Below are positions 30,776 through 42,754 of a stretch of 64,000 nt of DNA, piece by piece. The notes beneath the pieces were generated by a model, which did not search any database, was not told where the DNA came from, and was given only the letters and a program-made list of their open reading frames with translations. Numbering within the stretch: position 1 is the first letter of the stretch; every line of letters begins with the position of its first letter. Source of the stretch: Pontibacter sp. G13 (GTDB lineage: Bacteria > Bacteroidota > Bacteroidia > J057). Where the stretch lies: positions 3,988,501 to 4,052,500 of the forward strand of contig NZ_CP134696.1 of NCBI RefSeq assembly GCF_031851795.1, given 5' to 3'. A program made the translations under genes and the position numbers.

Positions 30776-31666
30776 ATGTCTACACAATCTACCAGTAACT
30801 CGGCTTCACAAGCACCTCGATTCCAAGACACGATCAACAATATCCTGTTCCCTACGGATTTTTCCGAGACTGCGGACCACGCCTTTTTGCATGCACTTCG
30901 GTTGTCCGTCTCTCTGGAAGCAAAATTGGTTTTATACCATGTTTACTATGATGCACCTGTTGCTGAAGGCGTAGTGCCTGAAGGAATCATGGAAGCCATG
31001 CGTGCGGAAAAGGTGGAGGATGCATTGGCACACTTTCGCGATTATGAAGTTCGCGCCAAAAAGTTCTTGAAGGAAGGAGTGGTCATTGAGCCTCGTGTGG
31101 AAGGCGGATATGTCACTGACCGTATCATCGAAGCCAGTAAAAAACTGGAGGCTGGACTGATCGTCATGGGAACGATGGGACAGCATAGTGATTCAGAATC
31201 CATTTTGGGAAGTATCACCTCACGGATTATCAATCACGTGGCTTGTCCGATTTTGGCTATTCCTGAATCTGCATCTACCAAGCCGTTCCAGCACTTGCTA
31301 TTTGCGACTGGCTTTGGAAGTGAAGAAATCCCGATGATTGAGGAAATGAATGACCTCAGTGATGTGTTGAATGCCAAGCTGTCTTGCATCCATGTCTCTC
31401 GCGGAGATGTTCCATATTCTGAACTGGAGCCCAGTATGCTTGAGCGAATCATGCATATCAAGGAACATGAAAAGGTGAGCATTTACACCGTCAACAATCC
31501 AGATATTGTGGGTGGTCTTCGCCACTTTATCAGTAGAAATGAGGTGGACATGCTGATCATTGCAGCACGTCCAAAAGATGTCGTAAACGAGACGATGAGG
31601 GAGACCTTGACTGCTCAGCTGGTTCTACACTCTGAGGTACCTCTTCTCGTGTATCACTTGTCGTAG
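30776..31666 (+). CDS. Tandem universal stress protein (UspA x2)
   Basis: The 296-residue product has two Usp domains. The first (about 20-160) has NNILFPTDFSETADHA and the glycine-rich nucleotide loop GTMGQHSDSESILGSIT; the second (about 170-295) starts HLLFATGFGSEE and has a weaker loop, suggesting it does not bind ATP. Usp proteins respond to starvation and redox stress. A GTG at 30734 would extend the frame, but the ATG at 30776 places a normal short lead before the first strand. Its 3' end overlaps the convergent TPR gene by 13 bases. Confidence 0.9.
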   Translation: MSTQSTSNSASQAPRFQDTINNILFPTDFSETADHAFLHALRLSVSLEAKLVLYHVYYDAPVAEGVVPEGIMEAMRAEKVEDALAHFRDYEVRAKKFLKEGVVIEPRVEGGYVTDRIIEASKKLEAGLIVMGTMGQHSDSESILGSITSRIINHVACPILAIPESASTKPFQHLLFATGFGSEEIPMIEEMNDLSDVLNAKLSCIHVSRGDVPYSELEPSMLERIMHIKEHEKVSIYTVNNPDIVGGLRHFISRNEVDMLIIAARPKDVVNETMRETLTAQLVLHSEVPLLVYHLS

Positions 31667-34600
31667 GTCTTCATCAACAGCTGGAATTTCGGGTGCTGAC
31701 GATAAGGTCTGAAAGCAGGATCATGCTCCAATTCGAGCGTAGGGTATCCATGCTTGAGCGCCATTTCCAAATGCTGGAAGAATAAATCTGTTTGACCTTG
31801 TCTTGCATAGATCTTGGTCAGAAAGCCCTGTCTGAGTCCGTTCTCAGGATCGATTTCAAGCGATCTCCGAACGTCGGGCAGGGCTTCGTCGTGTTTGCCC
31901 TGCAAGGCGAGGATGAAGCCTCTGTGATAATGCGCATCCTCCAAAAATGGATCGTACTCGATGGCGAGTGTGTAGTTTTCGATCGCCATTTGGTAGTCTC
32001 CCGCTTTTCGGGCCAGATCTCCACGGCTGTTGTAAGCCATTGCATTTCGAGGATTCAATTCGATCGCACGATCCAAATCTGCCAGTGAAAGGTCGAAATC
32101 CTCCGTCTGGAAGTACACATTTCCGCGGAGGTTGTATGCATCTGAAAAGTCAGGGTCCATATTGATGACGCGTTGCAAATCGATCAACGCATCTTCGTAT
32201 CGATCTGTCGAGGCGGACAAGGCAGCTCGATGATATAAAGCCAGACTCGATTGAGGATTAATCTCCAACGCTGTCTCGAAGTCTTCAGCTGCCTTGAGAT
32301 ATTGATTTCGAGTTTGGTGAATATTTCCTCGTTGGCAAAGCGCAGATACCGAGTTGGGCGACATTTCCAATACCTTGTCGATATCTCTGAGAGCATCTTC
32401 ATATTGGTTGAGTCGTGCAAGGATATGGCTTCTTTTCAGCAAAATGGTCGTGTCGGTCTCCCCAACCAGTTCTACCACGCGATTGAGGTCCAAGAGCGCT
32501 TTGTCAAATTGGCGGAAATGCTCGAAATAATTGGCTCTCCGCTTGAGAGGGGCAGGATCAAATGGAGCTCCCTTTACTGCAAGATCAAAGGCTTGGAGGG
32601 CTCTGTCAAAGGACCGTTGTTCGAAATAGATCTCTCCCAATCCCAAATTGGCCTCAGGAAGGGTAGTGCCCAGTTCGCTCGCACGTTGGAAATCCTTCAA
32701 TGCGGCAGATGAATTTCCATTGCCCAAATATGCAGAACCGCGGTATGCGAATGCGTCTGCCAACTTCGAATCAAAGGTGAGGGCTTTATTGAAATCTTTG
32801 AGTGCCCCGCTGTATTTCTTTTGTGCAAGGAGAATACGGCCGCGAGACATCCAAGCCTCGGCCATGTTGCCATCTTTGGAGATTGCCTTGGATACTTCGG
32901 CCAAAGCTTTGGAATATTCCCCTTGATTCATCAACAGCAGACCCTGATTGAAATATGCCTCAGGGCGATCGGGATCGATTCGAATGGCAGCAATAAAGGC
33001 CTGCTCTGCATTGGAGAGTTGGCCCATGAGCTTTTGGCACGCTCCAATTTGGATTCGATAATCATAGTCTTTAGGAAACTGTTCGGAGAGTTTCTCATAG
33101 TCTGCCAATGCCTGCTCATGCTCTCCAATGGCAAGGTTCATATCGGCACGATTTTCCCGAGCTTCCCGATGTTCTGGAGCCAATTTCAGTACTTGGTCGA
33201 GGTCTTGGATAGCTGTCGTGATCTCCCCGAGTTCTATGGCAATTTCGCTTTTGAGTAAATATAATTCTGGGTCCTGTTGGTAGCGAACTGCTTGGGAAAG
33301 ACTGTTGTAGGCCAAATCCCATCGTTTTTGCGATTTGTGAATTTGGAAGAGCAGAATCCAAGCTTGCGGGAAGTTGGGCTTCAATTTCAACGCCTCATGC
33401 ACCTCTGCCGGAACTCCCTCTTTCGGGTCGCGTTTGTAGGTGATTCGACCGAAACCAAGATATCCTTCAGCCAAAGCAGCATTCAAGTTGGTGGCCTTTC
33501 GATAGGCTCGCAAAGCGTCGAGTTCGTTCCCCAAAGCTTCATGAACCTTGCCGAGCTTGACATACAATGGCGCAAAATCCGGGTTCAATTGGATGGCTTG
33601 ATCCAGATCTTTTCGGGCAGCTGAAAAATGACCTGCACGAATCAGGATTTCACTCCTTCCCATCAATGCTTTCGCATTCTGCGGATCTAACTCCAATGCT
33701 TGGGAGAAATCTGCTTTTGCAAGCGTCGTATCTCCCAGGTTGACCCTCGCATTGGCTCTTGCGGTGTAGAGATCCGGCCAATTGGATTCAGCCTCGATTC
33801 TGGTATCAAAATATGCCAATGCCTCTTCGTGGCGATTAGCCATAAGGAAATTATCTGCAACGGCCTCATCGATCTCTGCCTGAAAAGCGAGAGAGGAAGG
33901 CTTGATCATCATCAGGTAATGTATTGCCGATTCGTAATTGCCCGAGCGGGTCGCCCAATGCGCCATGTCCCACAGCACATATTCACCTACCTTGTTGGTC
34001 AGCAGGTCCCGGTCTTCATAGAAATCCTCCATCGGCAATGAGGATTGAAGGACAGAGACCTGTGTGATATTCGGTAGATCGCTTTCAGGCTTGGCGATAT
34101 ATGAGATTTCGATTTGGGATTCTGATAGCTCATTTTCGATCACTCGCCCCCAAATGACCAAGTCCGCATGACATCCATCCATGGTTTGCTGAATGGCAGC
34201 GATCTCCCGGCAACTCGATGCCCCATGGTGCTTGACGTCCAAATGGATGTACGGGTCCTCGCTCCACTCTTCCAATTTCTGGATCGTGGATTGGGTCAAT
34301 CTATCCAAGGATTGCTGGCAGTTGTCTCCCTCGGTAAAATTGAGCACTAGTACATGGAAATTGGAGTCCGCTTCCGGAAATGGACAGCTTCTGGCATTGT
34401 TGGCGGCGCTATTGTTTGAAGGTAAAAATGGCAGTAGCTCCGGCGCAAAGTTCCAGATGGCAAGCCCGGCGATCAATATCGCAGCTATGGACCCTCCCGC
34501 GATCAACGGAATTCGATATTTGGAGGATTGGTCTTTCCTTTTTTTGGATTTTTTCCCTTTTCGCCCTCTCGACTGAAGCCGTTTTTGACGATTTCGATCT

Positions 34601-35346
34601 GAGGTTGCTTTGGGCTTTTGAGGACGTTGAGATTTGGGCTCCGGGGCAGGAGTAGCGGATGCCTCTCCTGTTGAGTTGTCTACCAATCTCCATTTTTGCG
34701 CCTCTTCGGAATTCGGATGGAGATGAAGGCCAGAGACCGCAGGAGTTTCGGGAGGAAGGATTTCCCCAGTGCCATCTTCTATTCGGTAGGCAAGAAGGGG
34801 ATAATCGTGTGGAAACTGGTTGGCAAGTGCCTGAAATGCCTGTCTGGTAGAAGTGCCTTGAATCAGGGATTGGTAAAAGGCCAAGTCATCTCCCCGTTTC
34901 CGCTGGTACTCCGTGAATTCGATGACTTGCGGAATGCCAGCCTGAATCAATAGCTGGGCAAGTCCGGGATGAGACATTCCCGTAAGCATGACCACCTTGA
35001 GTTTGGAGAATGCGCCAAGCAGTTCCGCAAACTCAGGAAGGGAAATATTGATATGCTGTCCAGAAACTGATCTGAAGGAAACTTCCTGCGAATCATCCAT
35101 CCCCTCAGAGACGAAGTGGGCAATCTGGATGCGATCTCGGGTATGCTTCTGAAAGAGGATATCCTCGGGAAATACGCGTGTGCCTTCCCGTGATTCCAAA
35201 ATCCGACAACCTTTCTGCTTGACAAGATCTGCCAAAAGCGCGGAGATGGATTGGACGTGAGTAATCGCTGCGGGTGACTGGGTGCCTGTTGCAGGATTCT
35301 CGGTGCAGGCAAGAAAAATGTACGGTAGTTGGGTGGGTCTTGACAT
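31654..35346 (-). CDS. Membrane TPR protein with an inactive CHAT-like domain
   Basis: The 1230-residue product has three parts. Residues about 5-175 follow the CHAT (caspase-like) pattern of Bacteroidota: IQIAHF, a central IxLxEFAELLG, VVMLTG, AGIPQVI, and LAFYQSLIQGTSTRQAF. Where CHAT proteases have the catalytic His (GHA) this has SEG (Glu81), and where they have Cys (NGC) it has TGM (Met124), so it should be inactive. A basic linker (240-277) precedes one membrane helix (about 279-302), predicting N-in, C-out. After a small domain (325-440) come about 19 TPR-like repeats to the end. Function unknown; signalling or scaffolding across the membrane is possible. Confidence 0.85.
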   Translation of the reverse strand: MSRPTQLPYIFLACTENPATGTQSPAAITHVQSISALLADLVKQKGCRILESREGTRVFPEDILFQKHTRDRIQIAHFVSEGMDDSQEVSFRSVSGQHINISLPEFAELLGAFSKLKVVMLTGMSHPGLAQLLIQAGIPQVIEFTEYQRKRGDDLAFYQSLIQGTSTRQAFQALANQFPHDYPLLAYRIEDGTGEILPPETPAVSGLHLHPNSEEAQKWRLVDNSTGEASATPAPEPKSQRPQKPKATSDRNRQKRLQSRGRKGKKSKKRKDQSSKYRIPLIAGGSIAAILIAGLAIWNFAPELLPFLPSNNSAANNARSCPFPEADSNFHVLVLNFTEGDNCQQSLDRLTQSTIQKLEEWSEDPYIHLDVKHHGASSCREIAAIQQTMDGCHADLVIWGRVIENELSESQIEISYIAKPESDLPNITQVSVLQSSLPMEDFYEDRDLLTNKVGEYVLWDMAHWATRSGNYESAIHYLMMIKPSSLAFQAEIDEAVADNFLMANRHEEALAYFDTRIEAESNWPDLYTARANARVNLGDTTLAKADFSQALELDPQNAKALMGRSEILIRAGHFSAARKDLDQAIQLNPDFAPLYVKLGKVHEALGNELDALRAYRKATNLNAALAEGYLGFGRITYKRDPKEGVPAEVHEALKLKPNFPQAWILLFQIHKSQKRWDLAYNSLSQAVRYQQDPELYLLKSEIAIELGEITTAIQDLDQVLKLAPEHREARENRADMNLAIGEHEQALADYEKLSEQFPKDYDYRIQIGACQKLMGQLSNAEQAFIAAIRIDPDRPEAYFNQGLLLMNQGEYSKALAEVSKAISKDGNMAEAWMSRGRILLAQKKYSGALKDFNKALTFDSKLADAFAYRGSAYLGNGNSSAALKDFQRASELGTTLPEANLGLGEIYFEQRSFDRALQAFDLAVKGAPFDPAPLKRRANYFEHFRQFDKALLDLNRVVELVGETDTTILLKRSHILARLNQYEDALRDIDKVLEMSPNSVSALCQRGNIHQTRNQYLKAAEDFETALEINPQSSLALYHRAALSASTDRYEDALIDLQRVINMDPDFSDAYNLRGNVYFQTEDFDLSLADLDRAIELNPRNAMAYNSRGDLARKAGDYQMAIENYTLAIEYDPFLEDAHYHRGFILALQGKHDEALPDVRRSLEIDPENGLRQGFLTKIYARQGQTDLFFQHLEMALKHGYPTLELEHDPAFRPYRQHPKFQLLMKTYDK

Positions 35347-35580
35347 GTGTCTATTCCGGAATTACCAATCGAGCAAATCTAACCATTATTTGGCCCTGCT
35401 CAATCCCTTGCAGTGCCAATGGTCAATCCGCCTGTAGAATGGATCTCTCAGCCTCGTGTTTGGTCACTTTTACGCTTCCCAATCCTCAAAAATAGGGACC
35501 CGAAAAATGACCAATCTATTTGGTAATCACTGGGAAAGTTCCGACAATTGCGCTCTTCAAAATTTTTAACCACACAATTC

Positions 35581-36617: not shown

Positions 36618-38639
36618 TTAGAATGCCTGTGCGCGATCCACAATGGATTGGACGTCTTGAGCAATCACTTCGGAGATATGCTTTCCTGTATGGTTTCTGA
36701 AAAGCTGACGCCGGCGACCTCCCACGGAGATCTTGATTTCGAAGTAACATTCCTCAACAGCAATTTCCACCCACTTTCCGTTTTGGCATTCCTCGGTAAT
36801 CGTGCAGGTGATATCGGCCACGATGGGATGCCTGTCCAGAATATCTCGGGCTTCGTTGCCTCCCGTGCGTGGAACTGGATAAGTTCCCGGAACCTCTGGA
36901 AATTCCGAGTTGATGAGTTCCTCCAAATCTCCCAGGACCTTTTTGGGATCAAGCTGATGAGGAACTCGCACGAATCCCAGAAGATAATCCTTGTGATACA
37001 GAATTCGACGGGTACGGGTATCGCCATTGGCACAGACGATGGCATCTAGTTGTTCATGGAGATTTGCAATCGGCGAACCACCAATCGGAGTGCCATCTGA
37101 TTCGACAGGGTATTTGTCGCAAAGCGCCTTGGCGGGTTCATAATTGCCTTGCTCGATGGCTTTTTCAGCAGCCTGAACATCGGCTTTCATGCCGTTGAGC
37201 TGGTCGACTACCTCGCTGAGATCGAGAGCTGGATTTGCGTTTTTCTTGTTGATGACCTTTTGACTAAGCGCATCCAACGCCTTTTTGACTTTTTCAAGGC
37301 AATCCTCTCCAAGTTTCTTATCGGCTCCTGCGCTGATCAATGAGTCTGCTTTTCCGATGAGGGTATTTGCATCATCAAATTCCAGATCTCCAAGCTTCCC
37401 GCCAGCTTCGGCTATGAGGGAATCTGCCTTGGCAAAATCCTTGCCTGAACCAGCGCCACCATCCACAGCAGTTCCTCCAGTCGCTTGGGTCCATTTGTCT
37501 TTGACACCTTCGAGCTTTTCTCGGCCTTCTTCGAGCATGGCTACATTGAATTCACAGATGTCTTCCATCGCAGAAAGCAACATGAGAGCCTGCATGAGAT
37601 CGACCAATTCCTCCTCGATTTTGCGGATATCTGCTTCGATTTGTGCGATGCGATCAGTCAATTGTTTTTCCTCGATTCTCAGCTGGTCGATAGCATCCTT
37701 GAGCTGTTGGGTGTTATCCCGGCATTCCTCCTCCAATTCCCGGAGCTCTTTCATTTCCTTGCGACGCTTGTTGAGTGCTTCCGAGAATTCATCAATTTGA
37801 CTCTCTGTCATGTTGACTGCTGCTCCCCCAAAATCTATGCTTCCCAGTTGGTTGACAACCGCATGCCCTTCGGCTGGAAGTGGGCCGTTGGGATCCCAAG
37901 GCTCGACCGTCGCGCCAATTTCATCCGCAATCTCCTGGGCAATCTCTTCCCGGCGGTCCTTGATGTCATTCTGGGCTCGTTCGCAATCCGCGATATCTTG
38001 TTGGTTCTGTAGAATCTGCCCCTGTACGACCGCTAATTCTTGATTTTTCTGGGTAAGGTTTTGTTCAGCCAGTGCCTTCTCGGACATGAGCGTATTCATC
38101 CGATCGACCAATTGCTTGATCAATTCGCTGATGTCTTTGCAATCTTGTTCGGTTGCAAGATCGGTCCGGCTGATAAAATTCTGGATGGTCTGGTTCCAAG
38201 GATATTGGAAGGTGAGGGTAGGGGAAAAGACAAAATTCAAGGTCGCATATTCAGACCAAGTGAAAGGGTCTCCTGCCGGAATTTCACCCGCAAACGCTTG
38301 GACTGCCCAGACGATGGTTCGGTTCTGAGCGGGGATGAATACTTCTGCAGGCCATGAGAGGCTAGTCCCGTACGTCCACACATCGATGATGGGATGATTG
38401 TTGCGAAGGGCATCTATCGGGCGTTGTCCGTGATAGACTTCCACGGCGATAAAGTGATACTGCATGGCGCCGGGAACAGGGCTCCAGAGGAAAACTGGGC
38501 GTACGCCAGATTGCTTGATCTCATGCCCATCGCGTGGCAGCATAGGTTGAGCCTGCCCCAATTGGCCATCGATTTGGGCAAAAAGACTGGGTATGGCCGA
38601 CATCCAGATGCCGAGCAGCAGAATGATGGATTTTTTCAT
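36618..38639 (-). CDS. Secreted coiled-coil protein, second gene of an operon
   Basis: The 673-residue product has a signal peptide (cut near FAQ, residue 22). A beta-rich, FN3-like domain follows (about 30-150, with PVFLWSPVPGAMQYHF). Then comes a long coiled coil (about 170-370) rich in Glu, Lys and Gln, a helical middle with repeated KADSLI units, and a small C-terminal Cys-containing beta domain. No family is recognised. Its ATG overlaps the stop of the barrel-like protein gene upstream (4 bases), so the two are coexpressed and may form a periplasmic-outer-membrane assembly. Confidence 0.8.
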   Translation of the reverse strand: MKKSIILLLGIWMSAIPSLFAQIDGQLGQAQPMLPRDGHEIKQSGVRPVFLWSPVPGAMQYHFIAVEVYHGQRPIDALRNNHPIIDVWTYGTSLSWPAEVFIPAQNRTIVWAVQAFAGEIPAGDPFTWSEYATLNFVFSPTLTFQYPWNQTIQNFISRTDLATEQDCKDISELIKQLVDRMNTLMSEKALAEQNLTQKNQELAVVQGQILQNQQDIADCERAQNDIKDRREEIAQEIADEIGATVEPWDPNGPLPAEGHAVVNQLGSIDFGGAAVNMTESQIDEFSEALNKRRKEMKELRELEEECRDNTQQLKDAIDQLRIEEKQLTDRIAQIEADIRKIEEELVDLMQALMLLSAMEDICEFNVAMLEEGREKLEGVKDKWTQATGGTAVDGGAGSGKDFAKADSLIAEAGGKLGDLEFDDANTLIGKADSLISAGADKKLGEDCLEKVKKALDALSQKVINKKNANPALDLSEVVDQLNGMKADVQAAEKAIEQGNYEPAKALCDKYPVESDGTPIGGSPIANLHEQLDAIVCANGDTRTRRILYHKDYLLGFVRVPHQLDPKKVLGDLEELINSEFPEVPGTYPVPRTGGNEARDILDRHPIVADITCTITEECQNGKWVEIAVEECYFEIKISVGGRRRQLFRNHTGKHISEVIAQDVQSIVDRAQAF

Positions 38640-40312
38640 CGGGTCGATTTAGCAGGTGAAGGAAGTCGGTATTGAAGCGTCGTGTAAAGTGTGAATTCGT
38701 TTTTTCGAGGTACACCGGGAACGGAGCGATAGGCGAAATTATGATTGCCCATTTGGATAGAACCGCTGAATTGTTTCCATCGATAGGTAGCCCCCAGATT
38801 CAGGAGGAGCTGCAATCCCGTGGCTGTTTGCATACTGCGAACATCCATGATCGTCAGGCTGGCAGTAGGCCTAAGTCCCTTGAGAATTTCATATTGGCCA
38901 TTGACGGTGATGGAATTGAGACCTGTTGACACGGAATCTTGAATTTGCTGGGTAGCAAGGGTAACCCCTCCGATCCATTGACTTTGAGTGGCTGAATACG
39001 CCAGTGCGATCTGGTTGGACGAGAATGTCTGATTCTGGCCAGTCGTGGTGTTCAAATCGTTGAATGCATCCAGTGAATAAGTCAATGTCCCACGGTGCAT
39101 GATCTCCCCAAACTGTTTGTAGATACTCGGTACGATCGAGAGGGAATTGGCGACAAGTTGGATGTGCTGGCCTTGGATGTCCGTGGTATTTCTGACCCCG
39201 AAATTTGCATACCCAAAACTGATATCCAGATAATCCGTCGGGCGAGCAAGGCCTGAGATATTGGCAAGTAGTTGTCGCGTAACCAGTCCCTGTTCAGAAA
39301 GACTCAGATTGTTGAGGCGAAGACCGACCGACCCAGAAAGAGAGAGTTTTCGATCGAAGAGATGCCCCCAGGGCGAAACCAGTACATCCAGTCTATCTGA
39401 AAGCCTTTGCGGAAAGGCCATCAATCGGTAGTCGTGGCCTATGTAAAGCAATTTGGCATCTCCTCCCCATGTGCCATTATTTAGGCCAATCTTCAATTTT
39501 CCAGCCATACCGCTCCGTTTGTAGAAATTGCCGGGAATGAGAGCATTGGCTATTCCAAACTCAGAAGTCGTATCCTGGATTTGCGAATTTGGCGCCCAAG
39601 AGCCTTGTCCCAGCTCGGCTTCGAATGATACTTGTTGATTCAATTGGCCTTTGACATCTACCGTGATCAATCCAGTCTGCTGAGGGAGAATCCCAAAGCC
39701 CGGATTCTCAACGCTTCCAATTTGATCCCTGAACCTAGCTAGATTTACTCCGACGGTAAATCGTTTTTGGATGGTCTGCTCAATTCGAAATGACCATTGA
39801 CTCCGACCAAATGAGAAGTTGGGAACAGCTGTTCTAGCCGTACCGACACTGGCCATGATCTTGTATTGACGGACTTGAAATTCACCTCCCAATCCGAAAA
39901 TCTGCTGATCTCCTACGGATAATTCGGATTGAATCGGAATATGCGAACCAATATGCCCTTGGAAGGATTTGTATCTGGGACCGAGGTAAATACGGTTGCC
40001 CGGATGGGCAATGTATTGCCAGAAATTGCTGTTTCCGAGTGGGCTGGGCTGTAGGGGACTGAAGTTGAGATTGTTGTTCAGTCGAATCTGAACCGGCAGG
40101 TAAAAATCATTGCCCCGCTTGAAAGCGGTCTGGGCCTGAAATCGTATGAGGTTGTTGGGCTGTCTTGGAAATTCGAATGGGATCGCACCAGCAGCCCTGT
40201 TATAGAAATAATGGGAGACTGATACTGTACCGCCCTGAAATTCGAGCGATTGACCCATTGCATACTCCAGCAGGCACCCCGCGATAGCGAGAAGGAGAAT
40301 GAATGATCTCAT
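38636..40312 (-). CDS. Probable outer-membrane beta-barrel protein
   Basis: The 558-residue product has a signal peptide (cut near YAMGQ) and then continuous alternating, Gly/aromatic-rich beta strands without any long helix, for example QWSFRIEQTIQKRFTVGVNL and TDYLDISFGYANFGVR. This is the look of a large outer-membrane barrel of 16 or more strands. The end is LYTTLQYRLPSPAKSTR, without the classical terminal Phe. It is the first gene of a two-gene operon with a promoter at 40386-40416. No specific family is recognised. Confidence 0.78.
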   Translation of the reverse strand: MRSFILLLAIAGCLLEYAMGQSLEFQGGTVSVSHYFYNRAAGAIPFEFPRQPNNLIRFQAQTAFKRGNDFYLPVQIRLNNNLNFSPLQPSPLGNSNFWQYIAHPGNRIYLGPRYKSFQGHIGSHIPIQSELSVGDQQIFGLGGEFQVRQYKIMASVGTARTAVPNFSFGRSQWSFRIEQTIQKRFTVGVNLARFRDQIGSVENPGFGILPQQTGLITVDVKGQLNQQVSFEAELGQGSWAPNSQIQDTTSEFGIANALIPGNFYKRSGMAGKLKIGLNNGTWGGDAKLLYIGHDYRLMAFPQRLSDRLDVLVSPWGHLFDRKLSLSGSVGLRLNNLSLSEQGLVTRQLLANISGLARPTDYLDISFGYANFGVRNTTDIQGQHIQLVANSLSIVPSIYKQFGEIMHRGTLTYSLDAFNDLNTTTGQNQTFSSNQIALAYSATQSQWIGGVTLATQQIQDSVSTGLNSITVNGQYEILKGLRPTASLTIMDVRSMQTATGLQLLLNLGATYRWKQFSGSIQMGNHNFAYRSVPGVPRKNEFTLYTTLQYRLPSPAKSTR

Positions 40313-40696
40313 CGTAAGTTTGTTGAGGAGAGTTGAATATCGGAAATATGAGAATTTGTAAAGGCAATTGGAATTTTTTCATCCGAAAATGTAAAATGAC
40401 ATCAATTTGATTCAAATCGTGTTAGTCTGCGAAGGTATGTCAATTGGTATGAGCATTAAGTAGCTCGAAAGGGGATAGCAACAGATTCTGTCGAAAATCG
40501 TACTTCCACCTCACGGATTCTGTTCCAAACTTTGTTAAATTGTTGGTGCAACCGGAATGTTTGTAAGGCCTTTCCAACCCAGTTTAGGAATGGCGCTCCC
40601 TGTTCTGATTCACGCAAATCTCCCTGCTGGTACATGATTCCTACCGGTTCAATGTAACTGGCATGCTTGGCAGAGATCCCAAACCGATTCGTTCGA
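40313..40696. other. Intergenic region between divergent operons
   Basis: This 384-base gap holds the minus-strand promoter at 40386-40416. A minus-strand frame (40456-40635, or from 40707) has protein-like composition, but no promoter, hydrophobic pattern or family supports it. No clear promoter for the AAA+ gene was found. Confidence 0.45.
40386..40416 (-). promoter_or_regulatory. Promoter for the barrel/coiled-coil operon
   Basis: On the minus strand TTTG (40416-40413) is followed after 19 bases by TACATTTT (40393-40386), 7 of 8 to TAnnTTTG. The start would be about 65-70 bases before the ATG at 40312. Confidence 0.55.
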
Positions 40697-42754
40697 ATGA
40701 GTTCCAATCAAGTTCCCCAAGACACACCCGGCACAGAAGTGCCTGTAGAAGTCACTCCCTCCGAAACCCCCACCCCCGTAGCGGAAACTCCCGCCAAACC
40801 CAAAGTGGAAGTTCCCGAATGGGCCCATGAGATCAAGCGAAAATATCTCTCGCAAAACGTATCTCAGTTCATCGTGCATGGCAACATCAATGACTATGTG
40901 CCCGTCAAGCGCGATGACACGATGACCTATTACCGTCTGCGCGACTTCCTGAATCAGGAAATGTTCAAGTACAAGGACACCGTGATCTACTACGATCGGG
41001 CAGCCGGCATCAAGTTCATCGACGATACCATTTTCGGAGGCGACGGTTCCATGCGGAAGGATTTCCTCTCTACGATGAAACTCTTCGACGAGCTGACGGA
41101 CAATAACTTCTCCGAACTCACTCGGAATCCCGCTCGGTCATTCTTCACGCTGGACACTTATTTCAATCTGCTTGTCAATCAGGAATTTTTGGATTCTTGG
41201 GTCAAGCAAGTAGAGCAGGCCTTGGTGAATGAAGAAAAGCCTGCGCCGGAGCAGCCCAAAAATGATGACGACGACATCATTGATCGCTTTATGCGAATGA
41301 CGCTCCCTGACTTCACGGAAAACAAGAAGGAAAACAAGGGAGTGACTTCCATGAAGCAGTTGAAAGAGCGTTTGGCTTCCTTCAAAAAACGTCTTTCCAA
41401 GCCTAGATCCGTTGCTTTTGTCATCGACTATGCGGAAACATTGATTCCGATGACGGATCAATCCAGCTATCGTCCTGACGAGCACATGCTGCTTGTATTC
41501 CTTCAGAAATGGGCCAGAGAACCCAAGTTTTTGGAGGCGGATTTCACGATTGTGACCTTGACTGAGAGCTTGAATTCGCTCAATGCACAGTACATCCGAA
41601 ATCCATATACCTATGACGTTTCGATCTCTTATCCAGATGACGATAGCCGTTTGGCTTTCATTGAAGATTACTTCAAACGCAATCCGGATGATTTGCAATA
41701 CTTCGAAATGCCCAAGAACGTCCTCGCCAAGAATACGGCAGGGCTTGGATTGGTGCACCTAGATACCATCATTTCCGAGGCGGTCAGAAACAAATTGCTC
41801 TACTCCAATGACGATTTGACCAAGCAAAAGAAGGAAATGATCGAGGCTGAGGCCGGCGGATTGCTGGAATTCATCCAGACCAAGTACAACTTGAAAGACG
41901 TTGCTGGACACGCCCAAGCCAAGAAGCACTTGACAGATGCCTCTCGCGCACTCAAAAATGGTCGTCCGGACGTGATGCCGATGGGATACTTGGTGTCCGG
42001 ACCTGTGGGTACAGGTAAAACCTACATGATTCGCTGCTTTGCCAATGATATTGGGGTACCGATGGTACTGCTGAAAAACTTCCGTGGGATGTACGTCGGC
42101 CAGTCCGAAGGAAACCTGCAGAAGGTGTTGAAAATCCTCAAGGCGATGGCACCGGTAGCGGTCATGATCGATGAAGCAGATGCCTATTTGGGTTCTCGTT
42201 CCGATGGAGGGGGATCTGGTGTCAATACACGGATTTTCTCCATGCTTGCGAGCTTCATGAGTGACACTGATAACCGTGGCCGAATCATCTGGTTCTTGGT
42301 GACCGCTCGTCCAGACTTGATGCCTGTCGACTTCAAGCGTCAGGGACGTGCAGAAGAACACATCGCATTGTTCTACCCGGAGACCTTGGAAGAAAAGCGG
42401 GAATTGCTGGAAGTCATGCTCAAGAAAACGGGCATCGACTACTTGGACATGGAGGATTTCGATGAAGAATTCTTCGAAGACATCACCGTGAAATCCGGCG
42501 CAGATATGGAGGCAGCACTCACTCGCGCCAAGTTCAAGGCCGCTACGCTGGGACTGGATCAAGTCAACGTCGACATTTTGGTGCAGGTCTTCAACGACTT
42601 CTTGCCACCAACCTATCCAGAGGAAATTGAACTGATGGAGTACTCCGCGGTGTTGGAGTGTACCTCCAAAGAGTTGCTTCCAAAGCGTTTCCGCAAATTG
42701 AGCCGCCAAGAAGTACTGGAAACCGTGCAGGATCTCAAAATGCGAATTCGATAG
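40697..42754 (+). CDS. Two-module AAA+ ATPase (Ycf46-like N-module)
   Basis: The 685-residue product has two AAA+-like halves. The first (about 50-370) begins with SQFIVHGNINDYV, a Ycf46-like start; it lacks a Walker A loop and has only a relic Walker B (VAFVIDYAE), so it cannot hydrolyse ATP. The second (about 400-640) has Walker A GPVGTGKT (435-442), Walker B VMIDEADA, sensor-1-like LVTARPD and RQGR near the Arg-finger position. It should be a remodelling ATPase. An upstream TTG (40667) is possible, but the ATG is preferred. It stands alone, so the client is unknown. Confidence 0.85.
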   Translation: MSSNQVPQDTPGTEVPVEVTPSETPTPVAETPAKPKVEVPEWAHEIKRKYLSQNVSQFIVHGNINDYVPVKRDDTMTYYRLRDFLNQEMFKYKDTVIYYDRAAGIKFIDDTIFGGDGSMRKDFLSTMKLFDELTDNNFSELTRNPARSFFTLDTYFNLLVNQEFLDSWVKQVEQALVNEEKPAPEQPKNDDDDIIDRFMRMTLPDFTENKKENKGVTSMKQLKERLASFKKRLSKPRSVAFVIDYAETLIPMTDQSSYRPDEHMLLVFLQKWAREPKFLEADFTIVTLTESLNSLNAQYIRNPYTYDVSISYPDDDSRLAFIEDYFKRNPDDLQYFEMPKNVLAKNTAGLGLVHLDTIISEAVRNKLLYSNDDLTKQKKEMIEAEAGGLLEFIQTKYNLKDVAGHAQAKKHLTDASRALKNGRPDVMPMGYLVSGPVGTGKTYMIRCFANDIGVPMVLLKNFRGMYVGQSEGNLQKVLKILKAMAPVAVMIDEADAYLGSRSDGGGSGVNTRIFSMLASFMSDTDNRGRIIWFLVTARPDLMPVDFKRQGRAEEHIALFYPETLEEKRELLEVMLKKTGIDYLDMEDFDEEFFEDITVKSGADMEAALTRAKFKAATLGLDQVNVDILVQVFNDFLPPTYPEEIELMEYSAVLECTSKELLPKRFRKLSRQEVLETVQDLKMRIR

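Follow-up and report, generated by a model that had tools for sequence, protein, structure and literature searches.

CHAT proteases (PF12770) are the described proteins nearest to the one considered here, which is the product of a single gene in a 64,000-nucleotide stretch of Pontibacter sp. G13 DNA (contig NZ_CP134696.1, positions 3,988,501 to 4,052,500; the whole stretch is hereafter called the window). The window protein shares both the fold and a sequence profile with the SAVED-CHAT structure 8tl0, and Craspase (Z 8.4-8.7) also joins a CHAT domain to TPRs. Craspase TPR-CHAT is not known to have a membrane part. In contrast to the CHAT proteases, the window protein is devoid of the His-Cys dyad, has its CHAT domain at the N-terminus, and carries a transmembrane helix and an extra domain before the TPRs.

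Dead caspase-type domains are treated in two published accounts, of which the one on vWA-fused caspases is by Kaur and colleagues. Such a domain is shared by the bacterial pseudo-orthocaspases (PMC6426788) and the inactive caspases of vWA-MoxR systems (PMC7159879); in the available passages, the former are of the p20/orthocaspase type, unlike the CHAT domain of the window, and neither set of passages describes a transmembrane TPR protein with a dead caspase inside. The available part of PMC7159879 suggests dominant-negative or peptide-binding roles for the vWA-fused caspase domains, most of which are inactive, so that a dead caspase acting as a binding module has precedent.

In layout, the window protein is also comparable to CadC, which has a cytosolic output domain, one transmembrane helix and a periplasmic part with a disulfide, and whose TPR-like helices match our model. 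However, the output of CadC is a DNA-binding domain, and of the outer parts only the TPR-like helices aligned. According to the available passages of PMC3096576, the periplasmic disulfide of CadC is a switch that supports the inactive state at pH 7.6. The cytosolic winged helix of the CadC/ToxR proteins is absent from the window protein, whose N-terminus has a CHAT fold instead.

An earlier note on the window had described a transmembrane TPR protein with a CHAT fold from which both catalytic residues are gone, and the predicted fold and the alignments agree with it. Dead bacterial caspases were already known, whereas searches of open-licence PMC papers gave no transmembrane pseudo-CHAT with TPRs outside. 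The layout, which the note did not know from described systems, is not unique, since two further paralogous groups and one protein with an intact dyad share it. The proposed arrangement of a pseudo-protease, one membrane helix and a repeat scaffold across the membrane holds as a layout, while its sidedness is drawn from charge, from the cysteine pairs and from the signal peptide of one relative rather than from experiment. Feature coordinates are collected in Table 1.

Fold of the N-terminal domain

Residues 1-200 alone match no Pfam family at E <= 10, and the CHAT assignment therefore needed proof; for the whole protein, the best 25 of 41 listed families are TPR and mostly helical-repeat models, all in the repeat part. 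A relative in the same genome (G000:C1:3188299-3188871), which itself barely passes the PF12770 cut-off (24.4 versus 24 bits), matches residues 5-194 of the window protein with an E value of 3.7e-11. A profile of 14 relatives, the window protein included, matches 8tl0 at E 1.9e-11. Moreover, hhalign was run with the six rows of group A, which comprises the window protein and one protein each from the genomes G009, G010, G011, G014 and G015 (six genera, one family). Against 14 CHATs with an intact dyad the six rows gave a probability of 99.8 and an E value of 2e-27, compared with 0.1 and 0.42 for the reversed alignment.

The AlphaFold model of residues 1-230, built with two relatives, reached a predicted local distance difference test score (pLDDT) of 79.2 and a predicted template modelling score of 0.83, the five models ranging from 79 down to 57. 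With this model Foldseek placed 8tl0 first (E 1.0e-6), followed at ranks 2-9 by unrelated enzymes (cystathionine lyases, desulfurase, formate dehydrogenase; E 3e-3 to 8e-3) and, below those, by caspases at about 1e-2. VIA-align also gave 8tl0 as the best solved match (Z 15.2 over 191 residues); DdvA came next (Z 11.0), together with legumain-type enzymes, metacaspases, caspases and Craspase at about 8 to 11, and it was only in VIA-align that the caspase-type rows were clear. Because of these results, the N-terminus of the window protein is assigned a CHAT fold. Its fold and its sequence homology thus place it with PF12770, though the Pfam model misses the window protein alone, and the lack of the His-Cys dyad (Glu81, Met124) makes it a pseudo-CHAT and no CHAT protease.

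Loss of the catalytic dyad

The alignments confirm that Glu81 stands at the His of G-H-[AG] and Met124 at the Cys of N-G-C. This loss is no local accident but is common to six proteins of six genera, since both residues are gone in all six group A proteins, with E/M, E/I, T/M, D/T, P/S and S/V at the His/Cys sites. The earlier note would have been refuted by intact homologues that betray a local alignment error, and only half of this applies: homologues with an intact dyad do exist, but none of them is in group A, and the alignment is sound. The earlier note had seen the replacement residues correctly and gave them too much weight, because they vary among the six proteins; Glu81 and Met124 as new conserved functional residues are accordingly ruled out. 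An acid (E or D) occupies the His site in the window protein, the group A proteins of G014 and G009, every one of the four group B rows, the group D protein and a single short copy (these groups are described below).

The two catalytic columns (EETDPS and MIMTSV) are among the most variable positions of group A, while L64, P139, G164 and W219 are invariant and H77, L121, G123, V141 and Y158 each deviate in one row. Group A also has a motif, R-x-[FY]-x-E-D-x-L (R/K57 in 5/6, F/Y59 in 5/6, E61 in 4/6, D62 in 5/6, L64 in 6/6; the G010 protein has a gap at residues 57-64), which is mostly conserved within the group and is no motif of 20 other short, kinase and mixed rows. Because the dyad columns vary while the fold positions stay, the conservation pattern points to pressure on the fold, not on chemistry. 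An enzyme that still acts through other residues is extremely improbable: only the intact fold speaks for it, whereas the nucleophile site holds Met, Ile or Val in four of the six group A proteins and no shared new catalytic set is visible. Decay of the domain is a less remote alternative, though an improbable one, in which only the outer part works and relaxed selection has left the cytosolic domain as no more than an anchor. The unordered replacements at the dyad sites would suit such a relic, as would the linker, which is short and basic in the window protein but a D/E-rich stretch of about 1200 residues in G014; however, six genera retain the fold positions, the fold is predicted well, and most of the R-x-[FY]-x-E-D-x-L motif persists.

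Two further paralogous groups of the same family have the layout of the window protein and are also degraded. The His/Cys sites of group B (own genome, G009, G010, G014) are E/G, E/A, E/G and D/N, and those of group C (own genome, G005, G009, G010, G011, G014) are F/S, F/C, F/C, Y/C, T/C and I/F, while group D, a single G005 protein of 1183 residues, has D/A. Among short proteins consisting of a CHAT domain and a transmembrane helix, four are H/C, one E/C and one P/C, and a further one is H/C. The family has 14 more CHAT proteins, some of them fused to a kinase or to something else, and every one is H/C; one of them, L015 of G005, has the window's order of CHAT domain, helix and outer domain with His and Cys intact. 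Altogether 17 proteins combine a CHAT domain, a helix and the outer domain, of which 12 have neither catalytic residue, four are without the His only and one is intact; the group C protein of G010 has no outer domain and stands outside the 17, and the halves of the G009 group A protein lie on separate contigs. The comparison set called active has 18 rows, from which two short rows without His were left out, so that its His/Cys invariance is partly by choice, though its 14 kinase and other rows were not picked by dyad. L025 is not in the dyad table, and L001 and L002 were assessed only visually.

Own-genome relatives, phylogeny and distribution

The genome of Pontibacter sp. G13 contains four PF12770 matches besides its three pseudo-CHAT membrane proteins, and the dyad is readable by eye in each of the four; candidates for the active CHAT paralogues, for which the earlier note proposed a search, are thus present. 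One own-genome locus, L041 (5979-7637, reverse strand), encodes a fusion of an intact-dyad CHAT and a Ser/Thr protein kinase, and PADLOC PD-T4-6 models match its kinase portion.

Searching 22 genomes of the order with residues 1-200 gave relatives in 12, all within the protein's own family (13 genomes). A search of contigs with the window protein alone returned no relative, and the same search with a three-row alignment returned two, corresponding to G015:C805 and G011:C174. Of the hits in the 22-genome searches with residues 1-200 and with L015 (a group member described above), those with a locus were read. A tree of 35 of 37 rows, calculated without the two catalytic columns, supported group B at 100/99, the short group at 99/96 and group A together with group D at 95/97, and it requires four changes for the His and three for the Cys; the N-terminally cut kinase CHATs L016 and L024 were dropped, and rooting was at the midpoint only. 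The window protein probably descended from a CHAT protease that was already tethered to the membrane and laid out alike, and that later lost catalysis. In the same 22 genomes and at E <= 1e-10, only group C members, beyond L015 itself, reach well into the outer domain of L015.

At the level of the class, a profile of the helix, the outer domain and the first TPRs matched 151 genomes in a draw of 395. Among the matches listed, nearly all those from other families begin only at the TPR end of the model (column >= 113). The outer domain is covered, among the same matches, in six of nine genomes drawn from the family and in G118, G224 and G078, where the N-termini are not recognisably CHAT; scoring took in at most seven candidates for each genome, and some outer-domain proteins may therefore have escaped. 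On this sample of 395 genomes, the pseudo-CHAT receptor would appear to be a feature of one family.

Membrane helix, outer domain and TPR array

The basic linker and the one membrane helix of the earlier note were confirmed by a hydropathy and charge scan. The sole segment with a mean Kyte-Doolittle value >= 1.6 is the helix at residues 279-297 (2.31), and 13 K/R residues lie in the 25 residues before it, with 1 after. K/R residues are more numerous before the helix than after it in 14 of the 17 proteins. The linker differs widely among relatives in length and composition. The group A protein of G014 (L042, 9669-16796; 2375 residues) has a linker of about 1200 residues between the CHAT domain and the helix, with 529 D/E and 62 K/R and, in the part inspected, EE-rich repeats, and G009 has KEEKAEEPKAE-type repeats at the same place.

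Between the helix and the TPRs lies a domain of about 120 residues (318-440), which the earlier note had not split from the repeats. The AlphaFold model of residues 305-560 (pLDDT 77.4) gives the order strand, helix, strand, helix, then strands. No Pfam family matched the domain, which gave only three weak single-member matches, and nothing better than E 0.18 was found among PDB sequences. Comparison with FlgO-type proteins (PF17680) by hhalign, using two FlgO rows, gave a probability of 13.8 and E 0.002 over 43 columns. As a separate observation, L150 and L151 (G078, G043) encode FlgO-domain proteins, by eye fused to a C14-type caspase domain, beside a second FlgO-like protein.

Relatives of the outer domain are found behind an apparent signal peptide (L092) or behind a different N-terminal part and helix (L093, L095), and these contexts support a location of the domain outside. 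In L092 (8772-10556, G118) the apparent signal peptide precedes a GNxNxQxGRDIxYN motif, after which come the outer domain and TPRs. Moreover, of 18 aligned rows, 14 have both C343 and C379 and four have neither, while eight have both C321 and C392 and 10 have neither, with no discordant row for either pair; the rows are related, so these counts give no probability. Such co-occurrence is what two disulfides would give.

The repeat part consists of tandem 34-residue helix-turn-helix units and is a TPR array. The scan found 17 units of 34 residues over residues 524-1169, together with five false units before residue 361, and the 67 skipped residues at 626-692 fit two degenerate units, giving the 19 or so TPRs that the earlier note had counted. 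The flanks at 456-523 and 1170-1226 hold, by eye, up to three more repeats, which makes about 19-22 in total. Among many other structures, the periplasmic domain of CadC (3ly7-3ly9; Z 10.1-10.5) matched the model, in its TPR part alone; by sequence, the outer domain gave no significant match in the PDB.

Table 1. Positions of the features in the window, with strand and basis of assignment
Feature	Position	Strand	Basis
Whole gene, 1230 residues: pseudo-CHAT, linker, transmembrane helix, outer alpha-beta domain, TPR array	31654..35346	-	Open reading frame, ATG start
Pseudo-CHAT domain, residues 8-223	34678..35325	-	AlphaFold, Foldseek, VIA-align, profile, hhalign
Glu81 codon, catalytic His column	35104..35106	-	Alignments
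Met124 codon, catalytic Cys column	34975..34977	-	Alignments
R-x-[FY]-x-E-D-x-L, residues 57-64	35155..35178	-	Alignment, group A
Basic linker, residues 224-278	34513..34677	-	Comparison with relatives
Single transmembrane helix, residues 279-297	34456..34512	-	Hydropathy and charge scan
Probable outer alpha/beta domain, residues 318-440, with C321, C343, C379 and C392	34027..34395	-	AlphaFold of residues 305-560; Cys co-occurrence
TPR array, residues 524-1169	31840..33777	-	Repeat scan, 17 units and two degenerate at 626-692
AAA ATPase; its orthologue is the divergent neighbour of group A in the five other genomes	40667..42754	+	Locus comparison; three genes between in the window

Gene neighbourhoods

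In the five other genomes, the group A gene is divergent from and directly beside the AAA ATPase gene, and the other flank differs where it is visible. In the window, three genes part the two, namely a DUF2167 gene at 35548 and two adjacent genes (36618-40312, reverse strand) of 673 and 558 residues, which have signal-peptide-like starts and no Pfam match over the cut-off. Names of flanking genes outside the Pfam scan were assigned by eye. The AAA gene occurs in 21 of the order's 22 genomes and in most of them has no group A gene beside it; such a gene is present at this locus in six of the 13 family genomes, in which count the upstream side of G016 lies off the contig and G005 shows only about 2 kb of that side; an obligate partnership with the AAA ATPase is weakened by this distribution. 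Group B lies between a DegT-type aminotransferase gene and guaB in two of its four genomes (own genome and G010, the G010 guaB by eye); in G014 it lies one gene away from DegT, and the G009 contig does not show the flank. In the own genome and G010, group C comes after radC and an M1 peptidase gene, and in G011 it comes after the M1 peptidase gene. The group D gene adjoins the group C gene of G005 and not the AAA gene. These loci have the look of vertical inheritance, which is clearest in group A, rather than of a mobile island.

Another reading, in which the dead protease is a decoy or dominant-negative module within some conflict or cell-death system, is very unlikely. About 70% of the vWA-fused caspase domains in the effector position of MoxR-vWA systems are inactive in the available passages of PMC7159879, the family is rich in CHAT proteins, kinase fusions among them, and the AAA protein matches PADLOC IetA at 4e-10. 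The IetA match, however, is to a general AAA domain (38.7 bits with the NCBIfam IetA model, against a cut-off of 510), the conserved gene order lies beside housekeeping genes, and no vWA, MoxR or EAD domain was found in the seven flanking window open reading frames scanned. The pseudo-CHAT protein itself has no relevant match in PADLOC-DB 2.0.0, its only one being in the TPR region (PrimPol, E 0.00097). A role in immunity, to which the earlier note alluded, is therefore not favoured.

The fold of DdvA from Myxococcus xanthus (8rot, 8rw5) raises another reading, that of a transmembrane sigma-factor regulator in which the pseudo-CHAT binds a sigma factor or its antagonist; it is very unlikely. 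DdvA, whose arrangement is taken here from entry titles and chain range, is a transmembrane regulator with this fold at 800-991, and it is the second-best fold match with 167-168 residues aligned; the likeness is one of fold only, at 11% identity. Genes of the sigma-70/ECF type lie beside the group A gene of G010 (L091, 6435-7016), beside the short CHAT gene of G009 (L050, 7739-8308) and, in the own genome, about 4 kb from the group B gene (L040, 2226-3059). By contrast, no sigma gene came up in the Pfam scan of the seven flanking window reading frames, a systematic sigma search was not made and the background frequency was not measured. No anti-sigma domain is among the families listed for the protein (best 25 of 41; best 25 of 37).

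A short CHAT-transmembrane gene is the neighbour of the degraded group C gene in three genomes (own, G009 and G010). The same probably holds for G015, where the visible rear of the gene beside the short one encodes a helix, an outer domain and TPRs and the CHAT end is off the contig. Of these short partners, only that of G010 deviates from H/C, with P/C at the dyad sites. Such pairs bear on a cFLIP-type regulator, in which the pseudo-CHAT would pair or compete with an intact CHAT of the same cell and so switch it at the membrane, which we regard as possible, if rather unlikely. The coexistence of intact and pseudo-CHAT proteins in the own genome is in line with it, and the available passages of PMC6426788 describe dead caspases that work with a live relative (cFLIP; TbMC4). 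However, the window gene itself has no CHAT neighbour, and neither member of the G010 pair has an intact dyad.

Proposed function

The reading that we tentatively favour, at just short of an even chance, is that the window protein is a single-pass inner-membrane receptor or adaptor that works without proteolysis. The N-terminus would be cytosolic, and the outer domain and TPRs would be periplasmic, where they might bind an envelope protein or report the state of the envelope, possibly redox or acidity via the disulfides. The change would be relayed through the helix to the pseudo-CHAT, a putative binding module by analogy with dead caspases, which might then bind a cytosolic partner. This partner could be one of the cell's own intact CHAT proteases, the AAA ATPase whose gene is the neighbour in relatives, a sigma factor or something else. 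More specifically, a membrane-spanning caspase-type family of Bacteroidia might use dead CHATs as transmembrane regulatory subunits that license the proteolysis of live CHATs in trans upon envelope stress, sensed through the disulfide-bearing outer domain and the TPRs; this parallel to cFLIP and caspase-8 we consider unlikely.

Several points weigh against a receptor or adaptor. Group A numbers only six proteins, the other five being 16-27% identical to the window protein over the CHAT region; the weakest, that of G010, owes its place in the group no less to its locus and outer domain than to its CHAT region. Group D falls inside group A on a long branch, so that group A is no proven clean clade, and the intact state is taken as ancestral on a tree rooted only at the midpoint. 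The positive-inside rule fails in three of the 17 proteins (B_G010, C_G005, L015). The outer domain itself matched no solved fold, and the CadC match spans only TPR-like helices, which match many proteins. Finally, the flanks of group C differ in G005, G009 and G014, and because the AAA gene is so widespread, mostly without a group A neighbour, its adjacency may be inheritance rather than partnership.

Dead proteases with a kept fold can show what caspase folds do besides cutting. The analysis also yields an outer-domain family that no Pfam model recognised. Moreover, three paralogous groups, mostly dead, stand beside live cousins and one intact copy, and the loss of catalysis and a possible gain of binding might thus be traced stepwise in one cell.

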